Below, one piece after another: positions 26,293-38,596 of a stretch of DNA of 48,321 bases. Position 1 is the stretch's first letter. Every line of letters begins with the position of its first letter. Origin of the DNA: Nocardia ninae NBRC 108245 (GTDB lineage: Bacteria; Actinomycetota; Actinomycetes; Mycobacteriales; Mycobacteriaceae); NCBI RefSeq assembly GCF_007990755.1, contig NZ_BJXA01000071.1, positions 1 through 48,321 of the forward strand, in the 5' to 3' direction. The position numbers were made by a program, and so were the translations under genes. The notes under the pieces were generated by a model. It worked only from the letters and a program-made list of their open reading frames with translations. It did no database searches and had not been told where the DNA came from.

Positions 26293-27462
26293 TCAGTGTC
26301 CGATCACTCCGCTCAGTTCGTTCGGCGTGGCGGCCAGTGTCGCGCTCGCGGCCACCGCGCCGGTGCTCAGGTCGATCCGGTGTACCTGCTTGGTCGCCGG
26401 GTCGGACACGTAGGCCATTCCGTCGCGGCTGAACAGGGTCGGGCGGGGATCCTGCCACTTCAGCGGTTCCTGCCACGGCGCGAGCACCGGGATGGAGCGG
26501 GTGATGGTGCCCGCCACCGGGTCGATCACGTGCAGGCGGCCGTCGGTGCCGAGCACCAGCGCCTCGCCTTGCGGGCCACGGGCCAGCGAGCGGAAGGTGT
26601 AGCTGGTGCCGATGTCGACCAGGCGCAGCGAGCCGCTGACCGTGTCGATGAGCGAAATCTGCTGGGGGCGTTCGAGTTCGGCGTCCTTGTCCTGCTTGTA
26701 GTCACCGAGCACGATCGGCGAGACATCGCTGCCCGCCGCATTTCCGATGCGGCCGTAGGGCGTCGGGCTGGTGACCTTGGTGATGGCTCCGTTGCGGTAG
26801 ACGAGAACGCCGGTCTGGCAGCCGATGACGATCGCCTCGTCCTTGGCTGCGGCTTCACCGTGCACGCCGGGGCAGTCCTCGTTGCGGGCGATCTCCTTGC
26901 GCTGCGCGTCCAGCACCACGGCCCCGACCCGCTTCTCTTCGGTGCCGAGCGTGACCAGCAGGTTGCCGTTCGCCAGCTGCACCGCGACACCATGATGCGG
27001 GGTGGGCGTGCGATAGACCTCGGTCTCGGGCTTCTTCCCCGACTCGAGCGCGGCGGATTCGAAGGCGGTGACCTCGCCGGTGCCGTCGGCGAACAGCACC
27101 GTGCGGCCTGCGTGGCGCACCACGTGACCTGGCTTGGCGGCCGGGAATTCGGTGCCGGTGAATTTCGTGGCGGCCGCGTCGAAGACCTTGAAGCCGTCCT
27201 TGACCGTCACCATCAGATGCCGGTCGTCGCCGGCCGGGTTGAGCCGGTTGAAGCCTTCCAGCTGCACCTCACCGGTCTTTTCCAGCGTGGTCGGGTCCAA
27301 GACGTAGATGCCGCCGTCATAGGTGAGCGCGATCGGCTCGGCACCGTGCGCGGGCGCCGCCGACTCGGTGGAATCGTCCGTGCCGCAGCTGCTTACGGCG
27401 ACTACCGAAGCGACGATTCCGGATAGAGCCACTGTCTTGGTGGCTCGTGACCGCATGTGCAT
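26293..27462 (-). CDS. aztD: AztD-like zinc metallochaperone lipoprotein
   Basis: The 389-residue protein has a lipoprotein signal (VALSGIVASVVAVSSC) and a beta-propeller of repeated strands: ALTYDGGIYVLDPTTLEKTG, HLMVTVKDGFKVFD, LLVTLGTEEKRVGAVVLD and so on. HHGVAVQLANGNLLV and the Cys pair in NEDCPGVHGE and IVIGCQTGV match the AztD family. AztD binds zinc outside the cytoplasm and hands it to the solute-binding protein AztC, as described for the Paracoccus Azt system. Start ATG 27462 has GGAG seven bases upstream. It follows aztC by 27 bp as the last gene of the leftward operon. Confidence 0.85.
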   Translation of the reverse strand: MHMRSRATKTVALSGIVASVVAVSSCGTDDSTESAAPAHGAEPIALTYDGGIYVLDPTTLEKTGEVQLEGFNRLNPAGDDRHLMVTVKDGFKVFDAAATKFTGTEFPAAKPGHVVRHAGRTVLFADGTGEVTAFESAALESGKKPETEVYRTPTPHHGVAVQLANGNLLVTLGTEEKRVGAVVLDAQRKEIARNEDCPGVHGEAAAKDEAIVIGCQTGVLVYRNGAITKVTSPTPYGRIGNAAGSDVSPIVLGDYKQDKDAELERPQQISLIDTVSGSLRLVDIGTSYTFRSLARGPQGEALVLGTDGRLHVIDPVAGTITRSIPVLAPWQEPLKWQDPRPTLFSRDGMAYVSDPATKQVHRIDLSTGAVAASATLAATPNELSGVIGH

Positions 27463-27489
27463 TTACTTACTCCGTGTTCTCGTGGGGTA

Positions 27490-28413
27490 TCAGGTGGGAG
27501 GTGCGGTGAGACCGCGCACGATCGCCGCGGTGTTCGCGCGCGTCATCTCCAGGAAGGTGGCCGCGCCGCCGCCCGGCGCGGTCAGCGACTCGGTGTGCAG
27601 TGCGATGACCTGCACGCGCACCCCGACTTGCTCGGCCAGCACGCGAGCGAGCTTGTCGGGCTGGGACGAATCGATGAAGATCGCGCCGACGCCGGCGGTC
27701 CGGATGGCATCGGCCAGCGAGCTGAGGTCCGACGAGCTCGGGGAGGCAAGTGCCGTGCCGCTCGGCATCACCGCGCCGACCACCTGAAAGCCGAAACGCT
27801 GTGCGAGATAACCGAAGACGTGGTGGTTGGTGACCAGCTTGCGACGTTCGGCGGGAATACCGGCGAACTGGTCGGCGACCCACTGGTCGAGCTGATCGAG
27901 CTCGGTCAGGTACCGATCGGTATTGGCGCGGATCGCCGTCGCATCGACACCGTCGACGTGTTCGATGATCGCAGCGGCGATCGTCTCGACCGCCACCCGC
28001 ACCCGCTTGGGATCGGTCCAGAAATGCGGATCGACACGCCCTGCGGATTCGTCGGAGGTGTAGCTGATCGGGTCGACGTGGTCACCGACCGCGAGCGTCG
28101 GAACTCCCGAACTCGCCGCGGCCGCCACATGGCGCGCCACCCCTTCTTCGAGGCCCAAACCGTTGTGCACGACGAGCGCGGCGCGGTCGAGTTTCGCGGC
28201 CTGCTGAGCCGAGGCCGCGAACGAGTGTGGGTCGGCATCGGGGGCCATCAGCACCGTCACCTCGGCGGTGTCGCCGGCGATGACGCGGGTGAGATCACCG
28301 AGGATGTTGGTGGTGACCACGATTCCGGTGCGATCACCGCCGCTTCCGGTGCACGCGACGAGCAGCGGGACCACGACGGCAAGCGCGGCGACTACGCGCA
28401 GCAGGGTTTTCAT
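27490..28413 (-). CDS. aztC: AztC-like zinc-binding lipoprotein of ABC transporter
   Basis: The 307-residue cluster A-I solute-binding protein has a lipobox LLVAC after the signal. Its zinc ligands are expected in DPHSFAASAQQ (His), RVDPHFWTDPKRV (His), VTNHHVFGYLAQRFG (His) and IFIDSSQPDKLA (Asp). It captures zinc outside the membrane and delivers it to the AztB permease. Its ATG overlaps the stop of the preceding aztB-aztD fusion by ATGA, so they are translationally coupled. Confidence 0.9.
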   Translation of the reverse strand: MKTLLRVVAALAVVVPLLVACTGSGGDRTGIVVTTNILGDLTRVIAGDTAEVTVLMAPDADPHSFAASAQQAAKLDRAALVVHNGLGLEEGVARHVAAAASSGVPTLAVGDHVDPISYTSDESAGRVDPHFWTDPKRVRVAVETIAAAIIEHVDGVDATAIRANTDRYLTELDQLDQWVADQFAGIPAERRKLVTNHHVFGYLAQRFGFQVVGAVMPSGTALASPSSSDLSSLADAIRTAGVGAIFIDSSQPDKLARVLAEQVGVRVQVIALHTESLTAPGGGAATFLEMTRANTAAIVRGLTAPPT

Positions 28414-30401
28414 TCGCCGGTCTCCGTCATGTGGGTCGGTGCGAGGTCGGCGGTGAGGGTGCGGGCCAGGCGCAGGTTGTCGTTGTACGCGATCTCGTAG
28501 ACCTTCCCGCGGGGTGCGTCGTTGACGTACGCGCGCTGGGAGTCGACCAGGATCGCCGGTGCGGCGGCGCCGTCCGCGAGCGGTTCGAGCAGCGCGACCT
28601 GCGTTGTCTCCCTTGCGGTTCCGGGATCGAAGCTGTGCAGCACACCGTCGCGGGTCAGCGCGAGCAGCGTGGCACCCTCGCCCGCGGTGTTCACCGCGAC
28701 GACCGGGCCGACCTGCGCCAGCGTCCAGTTCTTCTTCCGCACGTCGAGCGTCCAGAATCCCTGCTCGCCGGCGCGGGCGGTGAGCGTCGCGCTGCCGGGG
28801 CGGTGGGTGAACTCCACGGCGCGGTCGGCGGCGGCGACGTCGGCCGGGTAGCGGATCTTCTGTCCAGTGAAGTTGCCTTCGTCCCCCGTCACGACCAAAG
28901 CACCGTCGGCACAACCGAATACGGCGCCGCGGCGGGTCACCGCCCGGCCGCGCGGGTCGTGGCACGGTTCGGCGATCGTGGTCACTGCGGCGTTGTCGCG
29001 GGTACGTACCTCGACCTTGTCACCGGTCGCGACCAGCAGGTGCGCGGCATACGGCAGCGCCGCGGCACCGGTGATCCTGCCGCGCTCGACGATCGAGCCC
29101 TGATCGAGCGCGGGACGGTCCAGCAGCACCGTGGCGCCGTCTTCGAGCACCAGCGCCGCCAGCACCGGATCACTGTGCGCAGCCACCACCTGCCCGCCGA
29201 GGGTGCCGACTTCGCGGACGGGGGCACGGTAGTAGTGCACGTGGTCGCCGTGATCGACCATCCAGCCGCCGCTGTCCACGATGCGCGTCGAATTCCCCAC
29301 GCTCACATAGCCATAGCGACCATCGCCGACGATGCGGCGCACACCGTCGGCGCGGCCCGCGTCCACGGACTTCTCGGTGGTCAGATCCAGCACCTTGATC
29401 GCGCCCGCGCCACGGTCGGCGAGGATCAGCCGTGATTGCGGCTCGGCGGACTCCTCCGCACCGGCCACATAGCCGTGCGGCGTCTCGACCGGTGGGGCGG
29501 ACTCGGGGGTTGTTCCACAACCGGCCAGCGGGACCACGGCAAGCGCACTCGCCGCTACCGCCGCTGTGCGAATACCTTTGCCACGCAGCCGGTCCCGCGC
29601 CGCAGCCGCCAGCGCGGACAGGAAGAACAGGGCGACCGCGACGGCGGCGATCGTCGCGCCGCCCGCCGTCCCCGCGTGCCAGGAGATCAGCAGCCCCGTC
29701 GTCGTGGCCACACCGCCCAACACCGCGGCGAGCACCATCACCATCGGAATCCGGTCGGCCCAGTACGTCGCGGCCGCGGGCGGTGCGATGAGCAGCCCGA
29801 ACACCAGCAGCGTGCCGACAATATGGAAGGACGCGACGATCGCCAGTGTCACCAGTCCCACCAGCGCCACGTGCGCGAGTTGCGGGCGCAGACCCAGGGT
29901 GTGCGCTTTGCGCGCGTCGAAGGTCAATGCCACGAACGCGCGATGCCCGAGTGCCGTTATCAGCACCGCAATACCCAGCGCCACAACGAGATACAGCAGA
30001 TCCCGGTCGCGCACCGCCAGTACGTCGCCGAACAGGAACCCGGTCAGGTCGACCGCGAACGACTGCGAGCGCGACACGATGATGACACCAGCCGCGAGCA
30101 TGCCGACGAACAGCAAACCGATGCCGGTATCGGCCGACAATCGTTTGTTGCGGCCGATCGCGGAGACGCCCACCGCCATTGCCGCACAACTGATCGCGGC
30201 GCCGACCAGCAGATTGCCCCCGAGCAGCGAGGCCACCGCGACGCCGGGCAGCATGCCGTGCGCCATCGCGTCCCCGAGAAAAGCCATGCCGCGCACCACG
30301 ACCCACGTGCCCGCGAGGGCACAGATGCAGGACACGAGCAGGCCGCCCCACAGCGCCCGTTGCACGAAAGCCACCTCGAACGGGGCGAACAACCACTCCA
30401 T
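28410..30401 (-). CDS. Fusion of AztB-like zinc permease and AztD-like beta-propeller
   Basis: The 663-residue protein combines two components. Residues 1-272 form a zinc/manganese ABC permease of the ZnuB/AztB type (MAFLGDAMAHGMLPGVA, LTGFLFGDVLAV, FGLLIAPPAAATYWADR). Residues 275-295 read like a lipoprotein signal ending PLAGC. Residues ~320-663 form an AztD-like propeller (GGWMVDHGDHVHYYRAPV, EPCHDPRGRA, AVFGCADGALVV). There is no stop and no ATG/GTG/TTG start with RBS at the junction, and the strand stays in one frame. Such a permease-chaperone fusion is unusual. It starts at ATG 30401, beside a Zur box. Confidence 0.85.
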   Translation of the reverse strand: MEWLFAPFEVAFVQRALWGGLLVSCICALAGTWVVVRGMAFLGDAMAHGMLPGVAVASLLGGNLLVGAAISCAAMAVGVSAIGRNKRLSADTGIGLLFVGMLAAGVIIVSRSQSFAVDLTGFLFGDVLAVRDRDLLYLVVALGIAVLITALGHRAFVALTFDARKAHTLGLRPQLAHVALVGLVTLAIVASFHIVGTLLVFGLLIAPPAAATYWADRIPMVMVLAAVLGGVATTTGLLISWHAGTAGGATIAAVAVALFFLSALAAAARDRLRGKGIRTAAVAASALAVVPLAGCGTTPESAPPVETPHGYVAGAEESAEPQSRLILADRGAGAIKVLDLTTEKSVDAGRADGVRRIVGDGRYGYVSVGNSTRIVDSGGWMVDHGDHVHYYRAPVREVGTLGGQVVAAHSDPVLAALVLEDGATVLLDRPALDQGSIVERGRITGAAALPYAAHLLVATGDKVEVRTRDNAAVTTIAEPCHDPRGRAVTRRGAVFGCADGALVVTGDEGNFTGQKIRYPADVAAADRAVEFTHRPGSATLTARAGEQGFWTLDVRKKNWTLAQVGPVVAVNTAGEGATLLALTRDGVLHSFDPGTARETTQVALLEPLADGAAAPAILVDSQRAYVNDAPRGKVYEIAYNDNLRLARTLTADLAPTHMTETGE

Positions 30402-30415
30402 GCGCCCTACAGTAG

Positions 30416-30434
30416 AATGAAAACGATTGTCATT
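30416..30434. promoter_or_regulatory. Zur box between aztB-D and aztA
   Basis: AATGAAAACGATTGTCATT is a 19-bp imperfect palindrome (AATGA...TCATT with matching inner bases) in the 47-bp gap between the divergent zinc-transport genes. It fits the actinobacterial Zur consensus TGAAAACGATTTTCA. TACAGT (30408-30413) may be the -10 for aztA. Zinc-loaded Zur should repress both directions. Confidence 0.85.
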
Positions 30435-30448
30435 ACAAGTGAGGTGAA

Positions 30449-31174
30449 ATGATCCACACGGAGACCCCGAGCGCGCTGCGCCTGCACGGCCTGTCCGCGG
30501 GTTACGCAGGTCGTACGGTGCTGCACCAGGTGAGCGGCGTGATTCCGGCCGACCAGGTCACCGCGATCGTCGGCCCGAACGGGTCCGGGAAATCGACGCT
30601 GCTCGCGGTACTCGCCGACGTGCTCGCCCCGTCCGCAGGGACGGTCGAGCGGACCACCGAGCGCAGGCCCGCCTTCGTGATCCAGCACACCGCGGTGCCC
30701 GCGACATTGCCGATCACGGTGCGCGAGACGGTGGCGATGGGCCGCTGGGCGCACCGCGGCCCGTGGCGGCGGCTGACCCGGGCCGACCGCGCCCTCGTCG
30801 ACACCTGTCTGGAGCGTCTCGACATCACCGACCTGGCGGGCCGCCGGCTCGACACCCTGTCCGGCGGTCAGCGTCAGCGTGCCCTGCTGGCCCAAGCGCT
30901 GGCGCAGGAGGCCGAGGTACTGCTGCTCGACGAACCGGCCGCCGGACTGGATTCCAGTTCCCAGCAAGAGATTTCGCGCGCCATTCGAGAAATCAGCGCC
31001 GGCGGCGTGACCGTCGTACAGGCCACCCACGACGCCGAGGAGGCGGCCCGCGCCGACCACTGCCTCTACCTGCGCGACGGCACCCTGATCTCCGAGGGCG
31101 CGCCCGATGACGTTCTCATCCGATACCGCGCGGTGCCCTCCGCAGCGAACGAAAGGGCCCTAGAATTGACCTGA
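30449..31174 (+). CDS. aztA: Zinc ABC transporter ATP-binding protein, AztA-like
   Basis: The 241-residue ATPase has Walker A IVGPNGSGKSTLL, a Q-loop in FVIQHTAVPATLPITV, the signature LSGGQRQRALLAQALAQ, Walker B VLLLDEPAAGLD and the switch His in VQATHDAEEA. It belongs to the metal-import class. GAGG lies four bases before ATG 30449. It is divergent from the permease fusion with the Zur box between, and it would power that permease together with AztC. A DoxX gene follows after 16 bp. Confidence 0.92.
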   Translation: MIHTETPSALRLHGLSAGYAGRTVLHQVSGVIPADQVTAIVGPNGSGKSTLLAVLADVLAPSAGTVERTTERRPAFVIQHTAVPATLPITVRETVAMGRWAHRGPWRRLTRADRALVDTCLERLDITDLAGRRLDTLSGGQRQRALLAQALAQEAEVLLLDEPAAGLDSSSQQEISRAIREISAGGVTVVQATHDAEEAARADHCLYLRDGTLISEGAPDDVLIRYRAVPSAANERALELT

Positions 31175-31864: not shown

Positions 31865-32875
31865 TCAGGTCTGCTGGACGGGCTCGTAGATTTCTGCGCC
31901 CAGTCCGAAAGTCCATGCCACGCCTTCGCGGGCGGTGCGGGTCGCCGGGGGGACGCGCAGCCAGTAGGTGCGGTGGGTGCCGTCGGGCTCGGGGGTGGAG
32001 TTGACGACTTCGACCATCGCCACGTCCTCGTCACCGACGAGCTCGATCCGCCAGAGCACCCCTGTTTCGTCGCGGTGGATCGGTTGCGCGCCCGATTCGT
32101 CGAGATAGCGGTCGTAGCCGTAGTACTCGAGCATGATCCGGCGCAGCTCGGCATTCTCTTCCGCGCGAATCTGCTCCGGAGTCAGTGCCCGCAAGCTGTC
32201 GAGGAATTCGGCGCTGACGGACATGCCGCGCCATGCGTGTAGCTCGAAGCCGTCGCTATAGGCCAGCGCGGGGCCGTCGCCGCGGTCGAGGCGGCCGGCT
32301 TCGTCGCGGTGCAAGGCGGTGGGGCGTTCGCTGATCAGGGCGACCTTCTCGTACGGCCACCACCAGCCAGCTTCCCTTGCCACCGCGGCCAATCCACCGA
32401 GTGGCGAGCCTGCGTCGGTGTCGAAGGCGCACAACCACGCGGAATCATGTTGGCCGAGTGTGGCATCCAGCAGCAACAGGCGAACCTGGGTGCGCTGCTC
32501 GGCCGTGCTCGCCGCAGCTTCGATGACACCTTCACGCACCCGATCGACAACGGTCTGCGTCAGCTCCCACAAGCCCGCACCGGTGGCCTGCCAGCGTTCG
32601 TTGAACGCCTTCGACCCCAATTCCGCATGGACGCGGGCACGTTCGGCCGCCCACGGCGCACTACGCACCGCTTCGCGCACACTGGCACCGCGCTCCCCCA
32701 CCCCGCCCTCCGACAGCATCCGCACCGCCGCCAAAGGCGAACCGACCCATACGATCCGCTCAGGCTCGGCCAGTCCCGCCTGCCGATAGGCCGCCCGCAC
32801 CCCGGCCTCCGCCGCCGCTCGATCACCGGCGCCGGTCTTCGCCGAAATCGCCCGCCACACATCACGTTCCGTCAC
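31865..32875 (-). CDS. DUF6745-family protein
   Basis: The 336-residue protein starts at GTG 32875, behind GGAAGAG. Its conserved blocks are AEPERIVWVGSPLAAVRML, GSPLGGLAAVAREAGWWWPYE, GFELHAWRGMSVSAEFL and a C-terminal RVPPATRTAREGVAWTFGLG, matching actinobacterial DUF6745 proteins. It is soluble with no signal. The function is unknown. It is 46 bp downstream of the small gene at 32922 and divergent from the STM4015 cassette. I believe this family often sits near leucine-rich-repeat genes, which would support a shared system, but this needs a genome search. Confidence 0.8.
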   Translation of the reverse strand: MTERDVWRAISAKTGAGDRAAAEAGVRAAYRQAGLAEPERIVWVGSPLAAVRMLSEGGVGERGASVREAVRSAPWAAERARVHAELGSKAFNERWQATGAGLWELTQTVVDRVREGVIEAAASTAEQRTQVRLLLLDATLGQHDSAWLCAFDTDAGSPLGGLAAVAREAGWWWPYEKVALISERPTALHRDEAGRLDRGDGPALAYSDGFELHAWRGMSVSAEFLDSLRALTPEQIRAEENAELRRIMLEYYGYDRYLDESGAQPIHRDETGVLWRIELVGDEDVAMVEVVNSTPEPDGTHRTYWLRVPPATRTAREGVAWTFGLGAEIYEPVQQT

Positions 32876-32921
32876 GTCTTCACTCTTCCTGTGTTCGTAA
32901 GGTTGTCTGACGCTGTGATGT

Positions 32922-33248
32922 TCAGTCGGCGACGATTCGTACCGACCCGGGCACGTACTCCCGCTGGCGCACCACCCGATACCACCCCTTCGGCAGCGTG
33001 ATGGCCGCATGCTCTTCGTGCACGACGCGACCGCCCTCGGGCAGGTGCAGCAGCATCGGTCCGAACACACTCGCCTCGCGAATCAACCTGCCGGGACCGG
33101 CGATTGCGTGCGCATGGCCGGTGACTTCGCCGAGCGCCAGCACCAATCGCCCGCGGCCGTCGCGGGGTTCCGAGGCCGCGTGCACGGCCGTTTCGGGCAC
33201 CGCGCTTTCCGCCAACGGAACGATCAAGACGTCGCCTTGCCGATACAT
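32922..33248 (-). CDS. Small conserved protein (YRQGDVL type), DUF6745 partner
   Basis: The 108-residue protein starts at ATG 33248, with a strong GGAGGAG RBS. It begins MYRQGDVLIVPLAESAVP and is beta-rich, containing ALGEVTGHAHAIAG, RVVHEEHAAITLPKGWYRV and VRQREYVPG. The clustered His residues (GHAHA, HEEHA) could bind a metal in a cupin-like barrel, but no family function is known to me. It shares the promoter region 33249-33401 with the STM4015 cassette and lies just upstream of the DUF6745 gene. Confidence 0.8.
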   Translation of the reverse strand: MYRQGDVLIVPLAESAVPETAVHAASEPRDGRGRLVLALGEVTGHAHAIAGPGRLIREASVFGPMLLHLPEGGRVVHEEHAAITLPKGWYRVVRQREYVPGSVRIVAD

Positions 33249-33401
33249 GATTTCTCCTCCCACCGCCGGCCCGAGATCGGTGCCGTGCCCAGGACGGTAG
33301 CGGCGGGCACCGACAAAGCCCGCCCGCTGCCCCGGATGTCGGTGGGACTTGGTAGAACTCACCTCATCACTATCGAAACAGGACAGAAGGGGCGGGGACG
33401 T

Positions 33402-33473
33402 ATGAGCGAGCAAATCGTGTCGCAGTGCGCAACGCGCAGGCCGGAGCCGAGCGCGAGCGAGGTGCAGGCATGA
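33402..33473 (+). CDS. 23-aa ORF translationally coupled to the STM4015 gene
   Basis: ATG 33402, with the G-rich GGGGCGGGG upstream, opens 23 codons beginning MSEQIVSQCATRR and ending SEVQA. Its TGA overlaps the STM4015-family ATG as ATGA. It has one Cys. It could be a leader peptide, a translation-coupling device or a tiny substrate for the radical SAM enzymes downstream; it could also be chance in the leader. I have no homologue in memory. Confidence 0.35.
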   Translation: MSEQIVSQCATRRPEPSASEVQA

Positions 33474-34450
33474 GTGTCGGCGACCATCTGCAAGAGTTCG
33501 GCGGCTTGCCGGCGTACGACTTTCCGACCACCGATACGGACGGCCCGGAGAAGTCCGCAGGCGTCGTGCTCCCGGTCACGGACTCGGTCGCCTGGCGCAT
33601 CGGTGTCCCGTCCTACGAAGAGGAAGAATCCTGGGGCGCGGCCTTCGCCGAATTCCTCGACACCGTGGACACCACCGAGGTGCGGGCGCTGATCGTGGGT
33701 TGCTGGACCGAGGCGTACGAAACCAAGCCGGACGAGGTGTTCGAGGCCTTGCTCGACGCCAAGGATCGGTTCCCCGCGCTGCGCGCCTTGTTCCTCGGCG
33801 ACATCGTCGGTGAGGAGTGCGAGATCTCCTGGATCCACCAGGGGCAGCCGACGCTGCTGCTGGAGGCCTTCCCGGAGTTGACGGAACTCGGCATACGCGG
33901 CGGCCAGGAACTGGTGTTCCCGGCGATCCGCCACGAGCGTCTCCGGAAGCTGACCGTCGAAACCGGCGGTATGCCCGCCGAGGTGGTGCGCGGGATCGCC
34001 GCGAGCGACCTGCCCGCACTCACCCATCTCGACCTGTGGCTCGGCACCTCGGAGTACGGCGGTGACGCCGGCATCGCCGATCTCGCCCCGATCCTGGCCG
34101 GCACCCGGCTACCGAGCCTGAAGCACCTAGCGTTGCGCAACAGCGAGATCCAGGACGAGGTCTGCGCCGCGCTCGCGTCGGCGCCGGTGGTGGCCCGCCT
34201 CGATGTCCTCGACGTTTCGATGGGCGTGCTCACCGACGACGGCGCCGCCGCCCTGCTCACCGGACAACCGCTCACCCATCTGCAATTCCTGGACCTGCAC
34301 CACAATTACCTGTCCGCGGCGATGCGCACCCGGCTGACCGAAGCACTCGCGCCTGCCGGGGTGAAGCTGAATCTGGATCCCGACGACGCCTACTCCGACG
34401 AAGACGAGGACGCGGGCACTGTCTGGCGCTTCGTCGCGGTCGGTGAGTGA
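33470..34450 (+). CDS. STM4015-family leucine-rich-repeat protein
   Basis: The 326-residue soluble protein starts MSVGDHLQEFGGLPAYDF at ATG 33470, as expected for the family. The first ~130 residues form a conserved domain (WRIGVPSYEEEESWGAAFAE, VRALIVGCWTEAYE, CEISWIHQGQ). Then come leucine-rich repeats (FPELTELGIRGGQEL, LPALTHLDLWLG, LPSLKHLALRNSEIQD, LTHLQFLDLHHNYLS) and an acidic tail (DAYSDEDEDAG). LRRs usually bind proteins, so it may be the scaffold, target or substrate carrier of the cassette. It is the first large gene of five tightly packed genes. Confidence 0.88.
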   Translation: MSVGDHLQEFGGLPAYDFPTTDTDGPEKSAGVVLPVTDSVAWRIGVPSYEEEESWGAAFAEFLDTVDTTEVRALIVGCWTEAYETKPDEVFEALLDAKDRFPALRALFLGDIVGEECEISWIHQGQPTLLLEAFPELTELGIRGGQELVFPAIRHERLRKLTVETGGMPAEVVRGIAASDLPALTHLDLWLGTSEYGGDAGIADLAPILAGTRLPSLKHLALRNSEIQDEVCAALASAPVVARLDVLDVSMGVLTDDGAAALLTGQPLTHLQFLDLHHNYLSAAMRTRLTEALAPAGVKLNLDPDDAYSDEDEDAGTVWRFVAVGE

Positions 34451-35561
34451 GTCGCGACGCTGGGTAGTCGTCGGCAACAGCGAGAATCGTCGGGTCGGCC
34501 TGTTCCTCGACACCGCGCGCGCGGCAGGTATGGCCGCGCCGCGGGTCGTCGAGTGGCGTGACGTGCTGCGCGACGGCGGACACGACTTCGCCGACGACGA
34601 GATCGTCCGGCTCGATTCGTCCGGGGAGAATCCCGAGGTGGACGAGCTACTGCGCGGTGTGAAAGACCCGACCCGCGTAGAAGGTTCGGCACGGTGGTAC
34701 GCGCGGTTCCGCGACGCGGTCGGTTCGCTGCGCGGTGGCATCCGGCTGGACGATCCGGCGGAACTGGCGCTGCTGTTCGACAAGCGACTGTGCCATGCCC
34801 GCCTCGACGCCGCGGCCGTACCGGTGCCGCGCTCGCCCACCTCGGGTGTCGCTGCGCCTGTGCGAGGCTGGTCCGACGTGCGAGACCGCATGCGCGACGC
34901 CCGCCTGCACCGCGTCTTCGTGAAGCTCGCGCACGGATCCTCCGCATCGGGTGTGCTGGCGATCGAATCCACCAGCACAGGCCGACTGCGGGCAACCACC
35001 TCGGTGGAGGTCGCGCCCGGCGGCCGACTCCACAACTCGCTCAAGATCCGTTGCTACACCAGCGAATCCGAGGTCGCCGCGATCGTCGACCGGCTCGCAC
35101 CGGACGGGCTGCACATCGAACAGTGGGTGCCGAAGGCTGCGCTGGCCGGCCGGACCGCCGACCTACGGGTGCTCGTCGTCGCGGGCCGCGCCACCCATGC
35201 CGTGGTGCGAACGAGCCGGGCGCCGATGACCAACCTGCACCTCGGCGGCGCCCGCGGCGACCTGGCCGCCGTTCGCGCGGCGGCGGGTAAGTACTGGGAC
35301 GACGCGCTGTCGATCTGCGAACAGGCCGCCGCCTGCTTTCCCGGAACGCTGTGCGTCGGTGTCGATTTGCTGCCCTCGATCGGCTGGCGGCGGTTCACGG
35401 TCGGCGAGGTCAACGCGTTCGGCGATCTCCTTCCCCGGCTCACCGGACTACCCGAAGGCCCCTCCGCAGGCACGGACACCTACACCGCACAACTGCGCGC
35501 AGCGCCATATTTCATTGCCCGACAGCGGGTTTCATCGGAGGAGAGGTATGCACCGGCCTGA
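34443..35561 (+). CDS. STM4014-family ATP-grasp-like protein
   Basis: The 372-residue protein starts at GTG 34443, overlapping the STM4015 gene by 8 bp. It begins RRWVVVGNSENRRVGLFLDT. ATP-grasp features include FDKRLCHARLDAAAVPVPR, RVFVKLAHGSSASGVLAI (nucleotide-binding Lys and glycine-rich loop), HIEQWVPKAALAGRTADLRV and the metal-binding region GVDLLPS...VGEVNAFGDLLP. ATP-grasp enzymes activate a carboxylate as acyl phosphate and join it to an amine or thiol, so a peptide-bond or amide ligation step is likely. The substrate is unknown. Confidence 0.87.
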   Translation: MSESRRWVVVGNSENRRVGLFLDTARAAGMAAPRVVEWRDVLRDGGHDFADDEIVRLDSSGENPEVDELLRGVKDPTRVEGSARWYARFRDAVGSLRGGIRLDDPAELALLFDKRLCHARLDAAAVPVPRSPTSGVAAPVRGWSDVRDRMRDARLHRVFVKLAHGSSASGVLAIESTSTGRLRATTSVEVAPGGRLHNSLKIRCYTSESEVAAIVDRLAPDGLHIEQWVPKAALAGRTADLRVLVVAGRATHAVVRTSRAPMTNLHLGGARGDLAAVRAAAGKYWDDALSICEQAAACFPGTLCVGVDLLPSIGWRRFTVGEVNAFGDLLPRLTGLPEGPSAGTDTYTAQLRAAPYFIARQRVSSEERYAPA

Positions 35562-36369
35562 CATGAACGAGGTCGTCGGCCGCGACGATCTGCTGCTACT
35601 CACCCTCGATACGCTCCGCTACGACGTCGCGGTGGAGCTCGCGGCGGCCGGCAAACTACCGAACCTGTCCGCCCATCTTCCCGGCGGCACGTGGGAGCAG
35701 CGACACGCGCCAGGCAATTTCACCTACGCCTCCCATCAGGCAATATTCGCCGGATTTCTACCGACTCCCGCAGCACCGGGCCCGCACCCCCGCCTCTTCG
35801 CCGCACGTTTCGCCGGTAGTGAGACAACCGCCGACGGCACCTTCGTCTTCGACTCCCCCGACCTGGTAACCGCGCTCGCGGACCGCGGCTATCACACGGT
35901 ATGCATCGGCGGCGTCGGGTTCTTCAACAAGCAAGGTGCCCTCGGCAACGTGCTGCCCGGACTGTTCGCCGAAAGTCACTGGGAGCCGGAATTCTCGGTA
36001 GCATCGCCCAGTTCGTTCGAATCTCAGGTAGCCCGCGCCGAGAAAGTGGTCGCCGACCTGCCTGCCGAGCAACGACTCTTCTTGTTCCTCAACGCTTCCG
36101 CGCTCCATCAACCCAACTGGTTCCATCTGCCGGGAGCCACCCGCGAAACCGGGGACAGCCGCGAAACACACGCTGCCGCTCTGCAATACATCGACGGACA
36201 CGTAGGCCGCCTGTTCGACGCCATGCGTTCCCGGCGGCGCTGCTTCGCCATCGTCTGCTCCGACCACGGCACCGCCTACGGCGACGACGGCTACACCGGA
36301 CACCGGCTCGGCCACGAATCCGTATGGACAGTCCCCTACAGCCATTTCTTCCTGGAGCCTTCCGCATGA
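35548..36369 (+). CDS. STM4013-family alkaline-phosphatase-fold hydrolase
   Basis: The 273-residue protein is chosen from ATG 35548, five bases after GGAGGA; ATG 35563 has no RBS. It belongs to the sulfatase/phosphatase superfamily. LLLTLDTLRYDVA holds the metal-binding Asp and the probable Thr nucleophile. GNFTYASHQAIFAGFLPTP follows, and CSDHGTAYGDDGYTGHRLGH supplies Asp/His metal ligands. It overlaps STM4014 by 14 bp and STM4012 by ATGA. It should remove or transfer a phosphate, phosphonate or sulfate group within the pathway; the direction is unknown. Confidence 0.86.
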   Translation: MHRPDMNEVVGRDDLLLLTLDTLRYDVAVELAAAGKLPNLSAHLPGGTWEQRHAPGNFTYASHQAIFAGFLPTPAAPGPHPRLFAARFAGSETTADGTFVFDSPDLVTALADRGYHTVCIGGVGFFNKQGALGNVLPGLFAESHWEPEFSVASPSSFESQVARAEKVVADLPAEQRLFLFLNASALHQPNWFHLPGATRETGDSRETHAAALQYIDGHVGRLFDAMRSRRRCFAIVCSDHGTAYGDDGYTGHRLGHESVWTVPYSHFFLEPSA

Positions 36370-37706
36370 TCGACACCATCGCGCTACCGCGGCCCTACCA
36401 GAACTACGTGTACGCGTATCCGCACAAGACGGCGTATCGGCCGCTGACACCGAGTCCCGCACTCGCCGATCTGTGGGCAGACCAACCCAGACAAGCGCTT
36501 TCGCTGTATCTGCACATCCCGTTCTGTGAAGTGCGCTGCGGCTTCTGCAATCTGTTCACCCGGGTCGGCGCACCGGACGGGCTCACCGGCCGATACCTCG
36601 ACGCCCTCGCCCGGCAAGCGCAAGCCGTGCGGGCGGCACTCGGCGACCGAGAACCCGTGCGTTTCGCGAATGCCGCGTTCGGTGGCGGCACGCCGACCTA
36701 TCTCGAGGCCGCCGAGTTGTCGCGACTGTGCGATATCGCCGAGGTGCTCATGGGCGCCGACCTGCGGTCCATCCCACTGTCGGTCGAGACCTCGCCGAGT
36801 ACCGCCACCGCTGATCGTCTGGCCGTACTCGCCGAGCGAGGAACAACCCGGCTGAGCATCGGCGTGCAGAGCTTCATCGACGAAGAGGCCCGCGCCGCCG
36901 TACGACCCCAACGACGCACCGAGGTCGAGGCGGCCCTCGGACGCATCCGCGACACCGACATCCCGGTCCTCAATATCGACTTGATCTACGGCATCGACGG
37001 TCAGACCGAGGCGAGTTGGCGACGCTCGCTCGATGCCGCACTCGCCTGGCGACCCGAAGAGATCTACCTCTATCCGCTTTACGTGCGCCCGCTGACCGGC
37101 CTCGCCCGTCATGCCGATCCCGCTGTCGCGGAACGCGACTGGGACGAACAACGGTTGCGCCGCTACACCGAGGGCCGTGATCATCTGCTCGCGCACGGCT
37201 ATACGCAGGTCTCCATGCGCATGTTCCGCCGAACCGACGCCCCGCCACAGGGACCCGACGACTACGCCTGCCAGACCGACGGCATGATCGGACTCGGTTG
37301 CGGCGCCCGCTCCTACACCTCCGCACTGCATTACTCGTTCGACTACGCGGTCTCCATGCGGGAGGTCCGCACCATCATCGACACCTACACCGCCACAACT
37401 GATTTCAGCCGCGCAGTCCACGGGCGAGTGATCGATCAGGACGAGGCGAAGCGGAGGTTCCTGCTCCAGTCGCTGTTACAAGCCGACGGCTTCTCGACCG
37501 CGGACTATCGACTTCAGTTCGGCAACGACCCGTGGCAGGACTTCCCCACCGAATTACAGACCCTCGGTGACCGTGGCTGGCTGTCCGACACCGAAGTCGA
37601 CCGCGTGCGCCTCACCTCGGACGGCCTCGCCTACTCGGACGCCATCGGCCCCGAATTCTTCTCCCCCACAGTGCAAGCGGCCATGGCCGCCTACGAACTG
37701 AGATAG
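36366..37706 (+). CDS. STM4012-family radical SAM protein (HemN-like)
   Basis: The 446-residue protein starts at ATG 36366 (ATGA overlap). It has the radical SAM motif CEVRCGFC inside LYLHIPFCEVRCGFCNLF, and NAAFGGGTPTYLEAAELS for SAM binding. ETSPSTATADRLAVL and LSIGVQSFIDEEARA follow, all typical of the HemN/HemW group. The C-terminal domain ends in a HemN_C-like winged segment (FLLQSLLQADGFSTADYRL). It is not a haem enzyme by context; HemW relatives act as haem chaperones or C-methylases. In this cassette it probably modifies an unreactive carbon of the pathway substrate. Confidence 0.9.
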   Translation: MIDTIALPRPYQNYVYAYPHKTAYRPLTPSPALADLWADQPRQALSLYLHIPFCEVRCGFCNLFTRVGAPDGLTGRYLDALARQAQAVRAALGDREPVRFANAAFGGGTPTYLEAAELSRLCDIAEVLMGADLRSIPLSVETSPSTATADRLAVLAERGTTRLSIGVQSFIDEEARAAVRPQRRTEVEAALGRIRDTDIPVLNIDLIYGIDGQTEASWRRSLDAALAWRPEEIYLYPLYVRPLTGLARHADPAVAERDWDEQRLRRYTEGRDHLLAHGYTQVSMRMFRRTDAPPQGPDDYACQTDGMIGLGCGARSYTSALHYSFDYAVSMREVRTIIDTYTATTDFSRAVHGRVIDQDEAKRRFLLQSLLQADGFSTADYRLQFGNDPWQDFPTELQTLGDRGWLSDTEVDRVRLTSDGLAYSDAIGPEFFSPTVQAAMAAYELR

Positions 37707-37708
37707 CC

Positions 37709-38596
37709 GTGGACCTGACCATCCTCTACCGCGGCCCACTCGCGTCCTGCGACTACGACTGCCCGTACTGCCCCTTCGCCAAACGAAGAGACAGCACCGC
37801 GCAACTGCGCGCCGACCGCGCCTGCCTCGAACGATTCACCACCTGGGCGCACCAGCAGACCGGTGACCGGCTCTCCCTCCTCTTCACCCCCTGGGGCGAA
37901 GGCCTGGTGCGCTCCTGGTACCGACGCGCACTGGTCGAGCTGTCCCACGCGCCACATATCGACCGCGTCGCCATCCAGACCAACCTCAGCTGCCGCACGA
38001 ACTGGTTGTCCGACGCCGACCCCGACACCCTCGCCCTCTGGTGCACCTACCACCCCGGCCAAACCCCCTACCACCGCTTCCTCGACAAAACCCACCAGCT
38101 CGCCGGTGCCGGTATCCGCTTCAGCGTCGGAATAGTCGGCGTCCCCGAGCATCTCGAACACGCACAACGGCTACGCACCGACCTCCCCGACCACGTCTAC
38201 CTCTGGGTGAACGCCGCCGAAGGCCACACCTACACAGACGCCCAAGCCGAGCGCTGGACCGCCCTCGACCCCCTCTTCCCCGTCAGCCGCCACCCCCACA
38301 ACTCCGCCGGACAAGCCTGCCGCACCGGTTCGTCGGTCATCTCCGTCGACGGCGACGGCACCGTCCGCCGCTGCCATTTCGTCCGTGACCCGTTGGGAAA
38401 CCTCTACGACAACTCCTACCGCAGCGCCCTGACCCCGCGCCCCTGCCCACTCACCATCTGCGACTGCCACATCGGCTACGTCCACCTCGAAACGCTCCCG
38501 CTCTACGATGTCTTCGCCGGCGGCATCCTCGAACGCATCCCCGCTCGACTCGGCGCGACCGACCTCGGTGTCCCGCAGTGGCACGGAATTGCCTGA
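37709..38596 (+). CDS. STM4011-family radical SAM protein
   Basis: The 295-residue protein starts at GTG 37709, two bases after the STM4012 stop. The cluster motif is CDYDCPYC within LASCDYDCPYCPFAKRR. A C-terminal Cys-rich part (CRTGSSVISVDGDG, RRCHFVRDPLGN, CPLTICDCHIGYVH) has the spacing of SPASM/twitch-type auxiliary clusters seen in peptide-modifying radical SAM enzymes. It closes the cassette. Two different radical SAM enzymes with an ATP-grasp and a hydrolase suggest multistep modification of a peptide or protein. Confidence 0.9.
   Translation: MDLTILYRGPLASCDYDCPYCPFAKRRDSTAQLRADRACLERFTTWAHQQTGDRLSLLFTPWGEGLVRSWYRRALVELSHAPHIDRVAIQTNLSCRTNWLSDADPDTLALWCTYHPGQTPYHRFLDKTHQLAGAGIRFSVGIVGVPEHLEHAQRLRTDLPDHVYLWVNAAEGHTYTDAQAERWTALDPLFPVSRHPHNSAGQACRTGSSVISVDGDGTVRRCHFVRDPLGNLYDNSYRSALTPRPCPLTICDCHIGYVHLETLPLYDVFAGGILERIPARLGATDLGVPQWHGIA

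Follow-up and report, generated by a model that had tools for sequence, protein, structure and literature searches.

A five-gene STM4015-STM4011 cassette in Nocardia ninae encodes a leucine-rich repeat protein with an invariant C-terminal glutamate and a putative ligase that may act on it

Introduction

The ligases RimK and MptN extend terminal glutamates, and in the grasp-with-SPASM systems for ribosomally synthesized and post-translationally modified peptides (RiPPs) an ATP-grasp enzyme is accompanied by a radical S-adenosylmethionine (SAM) enzyme whose auxiliary domain is rich in cysteines; we know of no radical SAM partners for ligases of the RimK, MptN and CofF families. In a further system, passages of PMC10433800 describe how LysX attaches an amino acid to LysW through the gamma-carboxyl of an essential C-terminal Glu, the EDWGE tail of LysW being recognised by the GSWGR motif of LysX. 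Here, we analyse a 48,321-nucleotide stretch of the Nocardia ninae NBRC 108245 genome (contig NZ_BJXA01000071.1; hereafter, the window), which between positions 31865 and 38596 holds a cassette of five genes named after Salmonella locus tags, i.e., STM4015 (a leucine-rich repeat, or LRR, protein), STM4014 (ATP-grasp), STM4013 (alkaline phosphatase superfamily), and STM4012 and STM4011 (radical SAM), together with a divergent pair of genes, YRQGDVL (hereafter, YRQ) and DUF6745.

The cassette resembles LysW/ArgW with LysX/ArgX in that a tail ending in Glu is encoded beside an ATP-grasp enzyme of the same broad group. However, STM4015 is an LRR relative with a body of ~300 residues in which the zinc cysteines and EDWGE end of LysW were not found, whereas LysW is a small zinc protein; STM4014 is without the GSWGR recognition motif, and the partners of the cassette are radical SAM and phosphoesterase-like enzymes, in contrast to the lysine/arginine pathway enzymes that accompany LysW. 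Likeness of STM4014 to RimK, MptN and CofF takes the form of weak, broad family matches, far below the family cut-offs, and the substrates of those enzymes differ. Like the grasp-with-SPASM systems and the sactipeptide system of SkfB, the cassette appears to pair an ATP-grasp with a radical SAM enzyme, STM4011, whose candidate auxiliary domain, rich in cysteines, resembles a C-terminal stretch of SkfB; unlike RiPP systems, it has no short precursor peptide that we noticed among open reading frames of at least 80 amino acids, and its candidate substrate tail belongs to a folded LRR protein. The closest solved structure, 2ra8 (the uncharacterized Bacteroides fragilis protein Q64V53), belongs to the STM4015 family and aligns with its final Glu, but has 72 residues before the match, where a related Bacteroides finegoldii protein (locus L108) has a WGR domain.

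The absence of an assigned product for the five genes, as claimed in the original prediction made from the window's sequence, agrees with our search of the open-licence literature, in which no published function was found for STM4011-STM4015, DUF6745, YRQGDVL or 2RA8/Q64V53, although a subscription paper could exist. STM4013 and STM4015 are mentioned incidentally in PMC3844500 and PMC2784778, with no function given in the passages concerned, and no description of protein modification by the cassette was found.

Results

STM4015 (33470 to 34450, forward strand; NF038076) comprises an LRR body, an acidic linker and a C-terminal tail, the codons of which (34424 to 34447) read W-R-F-V-A-V-G-E and end with a GAG for the Glu considered here. 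Searches of the PDB with STM4015 returned 2ra8 (E 5e-92), followed by ribonuclease-inhibitor LRRs, and 2ra8 aligns with the final Glu of the profile 8 residues short of the end of its chain entry, the remainder presumably being a tag. When 22 diverse STM4015 sequences, tandem copies included, were aligned, the last residue was an invariant Glu. The same residue ends all 119 of the STM4015 proteins kept (118 distinct; five phyla), which are 32-79% identical to that of the window (alignments A4 and A6). This count excludes pieces scoring below 250 bits, one in L087 (position 4977; 126 bits) and one in L130 (position 12215; 69 bits); the L130 piece retains the tail. An original suggestion that the LRR protein might be the target of modification is strengthened by this invariance.

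The commonest form of the tail is R-[YF]-x-x-x-[GSA]-E, in contrast to the EDWGE of LysW. Position -2 is G, S, A or T, position -6 is Tyr or Phe in 115 of the 118 distinct sequences and position -7 is Arg in 112 of them; tails without the Arg include those of Salmonella (YMNAMYTE) and Bacteroides (WYYPMITE). The linker that precedes the tail is variable from -30 to -13 (entropy 2.2-3.3 bits), with Asp or Glu common at -23 to -12. We considered whether the terminal Glu could be an artefact of gene overlap and ruled this out, since 83 of the 119 genes do not overlap the next called STM4015 or STM4014 gene (32 do, and for 4 no such gene was called nearby) and all three stop codons are used (TGA 80, TAG 30, TAA 9). 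The last codon itself is GAG in 88 and GAA in 31. Unlike STM4015, the last residues of STM4011 to STM4014 vary.

Copies of STM4015 also occur away from the cassette, and all seven that we found far from it end in Glu. Four of the seven lie on Embleya plasmids, three of them sharing one record; the others are in Streptomyces cadmiisoli, in genome G305, where the copy is ~100 kb from the cassette, and on a Calothrix plasmid record in which no STM4011 or STM4014 was found, its chromosome being outside the search. Extra copies near a cassette (L064 and L146) are counted within the 119. In genome G012, a second STM4015 (L156/L282, around C1:2107711) has lost a large part of its LRR and is now a 205-residue frame that matches the profile in three pieces, yet it keeps the tail ...ADDERYVAVGE. 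Because the distant copies and this LRR-reduced copy retain the tail, we conclude from the sequences compared that it is under selection in its own right and could be recognised in trans.

A degenerate DNA pattern for the tail matched one place in the 9.7-Mb genome of the window, the STM4015 tail, whereas the reversed control matched nowhere. When 19 genomes or records were scanned, 16 of them yielded a total of 18 matches (control, 0), and across 59 genomes of the genus, 15 matches in 13 (control, 1). Opening of 28 pattern loci, from which four places of the genus-wide search were left out, revealed STM4015 tails at 24 (L282 and L296 being the same two copies); the other four (L280, L285, L298 and L303) had short or implausible frames and were judged to be chance matches. 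The pattern also misses true tails, e.g., genomes G047 and G133 have STM4015 and gave no match. On these counts, the notion that the tail is a general protein end was rejected.

STM4014 (34443 to 35561, forward strand; NF038074) encodes the enzyme for which we propose this Glu as substrate. Its predicted ATP-grasp-like nature was borne out, as all 17 members share K114, K161, D308 and N324, and E322 is nearly invariant; these correspond to the two ATP-binding lysines, Asp and ExN motif described as ATP-grasp signature features in passages of PMC4431377. An AlphaFold model built with 57 sequences was confident, with a predicted local distance difference test score of 92.3 and a predicted template modelling score of 0.91. 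In the PDB, a profile of the 17 members matched LysX best (1uc8/1uc9, 1e-5), followed by 3vpd and RimK (3e-5 to 4e-5), and at E≤1 individual members matched the NCBIfam models MptN (16/17), rimK_fam (16/17), LysX (13/17) and CofF (4/17). Matches to peptide-maturase ATP-grasps were weaker (GRASP_SAV_5884 in 1/17; E 0.03 for 7drm, which we take to be a graspetide ligase). By sequence, we lean towards the glutamate ligases for STM4014 without filing it among them.

Domains of the SPASM and twitch type are defined by C-x(9-15)-G-x(4)-C plus more cysteines beyond the radical SAM core. STM4011 (37709 to 38596, forward strand; NF038073), a radical SAM enzyme with a cysteine-rich C-terminal domain that may be of this type, conserves C14/C18/C21 and C204/C222/C246/C251/C253 in all 17 members, with the spacing C204-x12-G217-x4-C222 followed by C246/C251/C253 in each. 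Its sole PDB match up to E 0.01 was residues 313-396 of SkfB (6efn; E 2e-4), Pfam SPASM was reached below its cut-off in one member (18.3 vs. 21.5 bits), and weak matches to peptide maturases were obtained (PapB 6/17, AmcB 4/17, geopeptide 2/17). STM4012 (36366 to 37706, forward strand; NF006067) has PF04055 (62.9 bits) and PF06969, HemN_C (25.3 bits; cut-off 24), and its PDB matches were HemN 1olt (E 2e-53) and NocN 9p2u (E 2e-33). By these matches it is HemN-like and near the methyltransferase NocN. The radical SAM motifs CEVRCGFC and CDYDCPYC that had been read from the window are indeed present in its translations.

STM4013 (35563 to 36369, forward strand; NF038075) matched Sulfatase PF00884 with 31 bits (cut-off 25) and, in the PDB, the phosphodiesterase-nucleotide pyrophosphatase 7n1s best (E 5.9e-7), with sulfatases next. 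T54, D234, H235 and H247 are invariant in 14 of 14 members, the Thr lying at the presumed nucleophile place, a position assigned by eye. In Salmonella, a separate gene for a Cof-type HAD hydrolase overlaps STM4011 at the end of the latter (L107:9834-10565); in Bacteroides finegoldii, a single fused gene encodes STM4011 and such a hydrolase together (L108:8965-10527). Because such a phosphatase lies beside or is fused to STM4011, the gene order points to intermediates that may be phosphorylated.

All five proteins of the window, in the order originally read, exceeded the curated NCBIfam cut-offs: STM4015, 396 bits vs. 275; STM4014, 436 vs. 175; STM4013, 423 vs. 250; STM4012, 644 vs. 380; and STM4011, 419 vs. 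200. Among the matches listed for STM4011, the closest named relative was from N. suismassiliense (96%). Between open reading frames, STM4015 and STM4014 overlap by 8 bases, STM4014 and STM4013 are separated by 1, STM4013 and STM4012 overlap by 4, and STM4012 and STM4011 are separated by 2, lengths that depend on the start codons chosen. There is no space for a further gene between these abutting or overlapping genes; frames below 80 amino acids, e.g., in the 33249-33469 stretch, fell outside the search. By gene layout, that stretch separates the two divergent arms and presumably holds the promoters of both. On its other side and on the reverse strand lie YRQ (32922 to 33248; phrog_27831), redefined here as a gene of 108 amino acids, and DUF6745 (31865 to 32875; PF20530), confirmed by Pfam at 382 bits (cut-off 27). 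The start of DUF6745 is uncertain, its frame being open to 33070, and ~32875 was adopted.

Relatives of STM4011 were sought in a species-level genome collection, where at least 587 were confirmed and the best 80 by similarity were kept, a choice that favours near relatives; by name, the 80 loci belong to Nocardia, Streptomyces, Actinacidiphila and one "Actinobacteria bacterium", all Actinomycetota. Five complete genes were present at 78 of the 80, in the window's order at the loci listed, and the two incomplete loci (L050 and L083) are truncated by contig ends. The observation made in the window holds, and with this recurrence the five-gene cassette is not a chance assembly. Nine further genomes of the phylum all had the five genes, and three of them had the pair as well. 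The cassette is sparse: STM4011 exceeds the cut-off in 6 of the 150 genomes scanned for the order and in 6 of the 296 scanned for the phylum, the window's genome included.

Among 72,556 plasmid records, STM4011 and STM4014 occurred in exactly the same 13, and YRQ in 9, of which 7 are among those 13. When 12 of the 13 were opened, 10 had all five genes above profile thresholds and 6 had the pair. The two exceptions were an Embleya record (L147), in which STM4014 was found by tblastn but not by the frame search, and a reduced Bacteroides locus (L108) in which STM4015, STM4014 and the STM4011-HAD fusion are intact and STM4013 and STM4012 are remnants. In viruses, 13 pattern matches to the cassette included no true relative.

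The original prediction tied DUF6745 and the small gene to the cassette and called for a survey of all seven families. That tie stood in several genera, where the pair takes three arrangements: divergent and upstream in Nocardia and Streptomyces, convergent and downstream in Nonomuraea and three Deinococcus, and co-directional and upstream in Methylobacterium. Among the 78 complete cassettes, YRQ is present in 71, both genes in 69 and neither in 7; of the two loci with YRQ and no full DUF6745 match, one (L029) has a contig end on that side and the other (L048) has a weak YRQ match only. The seven families do not form one unit, since the pair is absent from cassette loci of Salmonella, Paenibacillus, Bacteroides and Embleya, from the 7 of 78 just noted and from 6 of the 9 further genomes of the phylum. 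An obligate seven-gene unit was rejected on the strength of cassettes without the pair and phage pairs without cassette genes.

In viral sequences, a YRQ relative was found in 194 of 208 pattern-matched stretches. Combining the best 80 of the 194 with 13 of 18 from a cyanophage query gave 93 loci with flanks of at most 5 kb, at least one contig being counted twice. DUF6745 adjoins YRQ at 88 of the 93, and the five loci with YRQ alone all have <0.8 kb of sequence past it; no STM401x gene was found in the fetched stretches. One such pair is gp175-gp174 of cyanophage Ma-LMM01 (L115:3968-5499), which adjoins DNA-metabolism genes and has relatives on many IMG/VR contigs. Fifty hand-picked neighbouring genes, taken from viral loci other than the Ma-LMM01-like ones, had matches among the families listed (25 of 80 by PHROGs and 25 of 34 by Pfam) to helicases, primases, recombinases, methyltransferases, nucleases, integrases and one terminase small subunit, and no family was found in more than 2 of the 50; the surroundings were thus varied, mostly of DNA metabolism. 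Because phage loci hold the pair with no cassette nearby, YRQ-DUF6745 is an independent module and an add-on to the cassette. In a FastTree tree of 112 rows, pairs of Actinomycetota lie separate from those of Deinococcus and Methylobacterium among viral ones, which suggests that the pair may have been linked to the cassette on two occasions, although a single cassette-pair clade was not rejected (approximately unbiased test, p 0.146; a thinned set of 53 of the 112 rows).

An alignment of 17 diverse YRQ proteins (A2) showed H47, H77, E79, H80, E97 and D108 to be invariant, and this His/Glu/Asp set suggests a candidate metal site. YRQ matches the phage family phrog_27831 (function unassigned; E 1.3e-13), its longer frame matched nothing in Pfam or NCBIfam, and the PDB held no convincing relative (best E 0.3 and 0.13); nor did a DUF6745 profile find a relative there up to E 1. 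The last residue of YRQ is Asp in 86 of 87, and, since no variable linker precedes it, we read this residue as probably belonging to the fold. In Deinococcus and Methylobacterium, DUF6745 matches the C-terminal part of the protein only, after what by eye appear to be leucine-rich repeats. Short degenerate repeat runs also precede the domain at L118:4951-6273 (Nocardia farcinica) and L142:7112-8713 (genome G074), and L114 has an unusually long DUF6745 protein. On a Deinococcus ficus plasmid (L116:5928-12254), the pair occurs in a stretch with no STM401x genes and is followed by VWA, DUF350, glutathionylspermidine-synthase-type and ion-transporter genes, i.e., near a different ligase family.

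Elsewhere in the window, positions 26293-31174 hold genes for an apparent zinc ATP-binding cassette importer and a chaperone, presumably AztABCD-like, in which frame 28410-30401 joins the permease to another domain. No part of the window matched Rfam at gathering scores.

Discussion

From the gene content, the families, the invariant tail, the distant copies and the weak resemblance of STM4014 to glutamate ligases, all observed above, we infer a reaction, its order, its cargo, a role for the pair and the fate of the product. STM4015 would present its tail, and STM4014 would activate the carboxylate of the last Glu and join it, as an amide, to glutamate or some other amino compound. This step is proposed because STM4014 weakly matches ligases of terminal glutamates (LysX, RimK and MptN). 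STM4011 and STM4012 could then alter the tail or the attached group by radical chemistry, while STM4013, plus the HAD phosphatase in Salmonella and Bacteroides, may remove phosphate from an intermediate or cleave a phosphodiester in it. The LRR body would recruit the enzymes or set where the modified protein acts, copies of STM4015 elsewhere in the genome would be modified in trans, and DUF6745 with YRQ, an optional pair shared with phages, might act on the product or protect against it. Whether described as post-translational modification or as protein-tethered biosynthesis, we consider this scheme, taken whole, to stand evenly balanced between right and wrong. Since no release peptidase is visible and some genomes carry several LRR copies, we lean towards a product retained as a prosthetic group rather than released as from LysW.

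Several observations weigh against amidation of the terminal Glu by STM4014. Its glutamate-ligase matches lie far under the NCBIfam cut-offs (for the window's protein, rimK_fam 18.2 vs. 143.4 bits and LysX/ArgX TIGR02144 13.0 vs. 275.6 bits). In Pfam, 15 of 17 members match ATPgrasp_ST, the sugar-transfer ATP-grasp (best E 5.8e-10), and 13 match YheCD, with RimK in just 5 (best E 0.013), and at the place aligned with GSWGR of LysX they have GS[SG]A[SAG]G (alignment A1). That we saw no release peptidase in the cassette also counts against it. The reduced Bacteroides locus may mean that the full five-step scheme is unneeded there, or that the locus has decayed. The invariant end could also be a docking signal.

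Such docking belongs to an alternative in which STM4015 is a scaffold that organises the enzymes, its tail docks STM4014 and the pathway yields a free small molecule. LRRs are a classical protein-binding fold, with ribonuclease-inhibitor relatives here, the presence of STM4013 and of HAD genes hints at small-molecule intermediates that carry phosphate, tandem or scattered copies of STM4015 could serve as alternative scaffolds, and the Streptomyces cadmiisoli plasmid encodes a TauE/SafE-family exporter in a gene overlapping the STM4011 end (L119:2408-4023). However, copies distant from the cassette share the same end, and, in our judgement, a docking peptide rarely hinges on a single invariant terminal residue after a variable linker. 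Moreover, no conserved flanking transporter stood out, in a comparison whose noisy frames could miss one; its largest cluster, in 47 of 80 loci, looked like out-of-frame translation. We regard a scaffold as unlikely, and give similarly little weight to a RiPP-like system in which the tail is a core peptide and the LRR body an outsized leader, STM4011 and STM4012 cross-linking or alkylating the Arg and Tyr/Phe and STM4014 making a side-chain amide or lactam. The frequency of Arg at -7 and of Tyr/Phe at -6 would suit such chemistry, as would the weak matches of STM4011 to PapB, AmcB and geopeptide enzymes and its SkfB-like stretch; yet the final Glu is the sole invariant residue, the Arg is missing in Salmonella and Bacteroides, STM4014 matches peptide-maturase ATP-grasps less well, and lactam formation is not known for LysX/RimK relatives, which work on terminal glutamates.

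The pair raises a further alternative, that the cassette acts in anti-phage or inter-bacterial conflict with DUF6745-YRQ as immunity or counter-defence partner. Its phage-borne occurrence, with some neighbours of DNA metabolism, is in keeping with this, as is the tree topology if the pair was linked twice. However, cassettes exist without the pair, PADLOC gave no match for six of the seven proteins and one weak match for STM4012 (31 bits), and the only defence genes in the annotation beside the Salmonella, Methylobacterium and Deinococcus cassettes were toxin-antitoxin genes. We therefore hold a role in conflict to be very improbable.

Returning to modification of the STM4015 tail, the five families occur in Actinomycetota, Pseudomonadota, Bacillota, Deinococcota and Bacteroidota (three of the five intact in the last), and their names are still Salmonella locus tags. 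A bolder version, which we would put forward as speculative and doubtful, is that LRR proteins are targets genome-wide, that the ATP-grasp and the two radical SAM enzymes turn their common tail into a protein-bound cofactor or warhead of a new kind, and that the YRQ-DUF6745 pair of phages handles the product. The single invariant residue offers a concrete and cheap test of the role of the whole operon. If the tail is loaded or extended, this could also account for a phage gene pair without an assigned function, and STM4015 would be, to our knowledge, the first LRR protein to serve as carrier or target where a LysX/RimK-type ligase works together with radical SAM enzymes.

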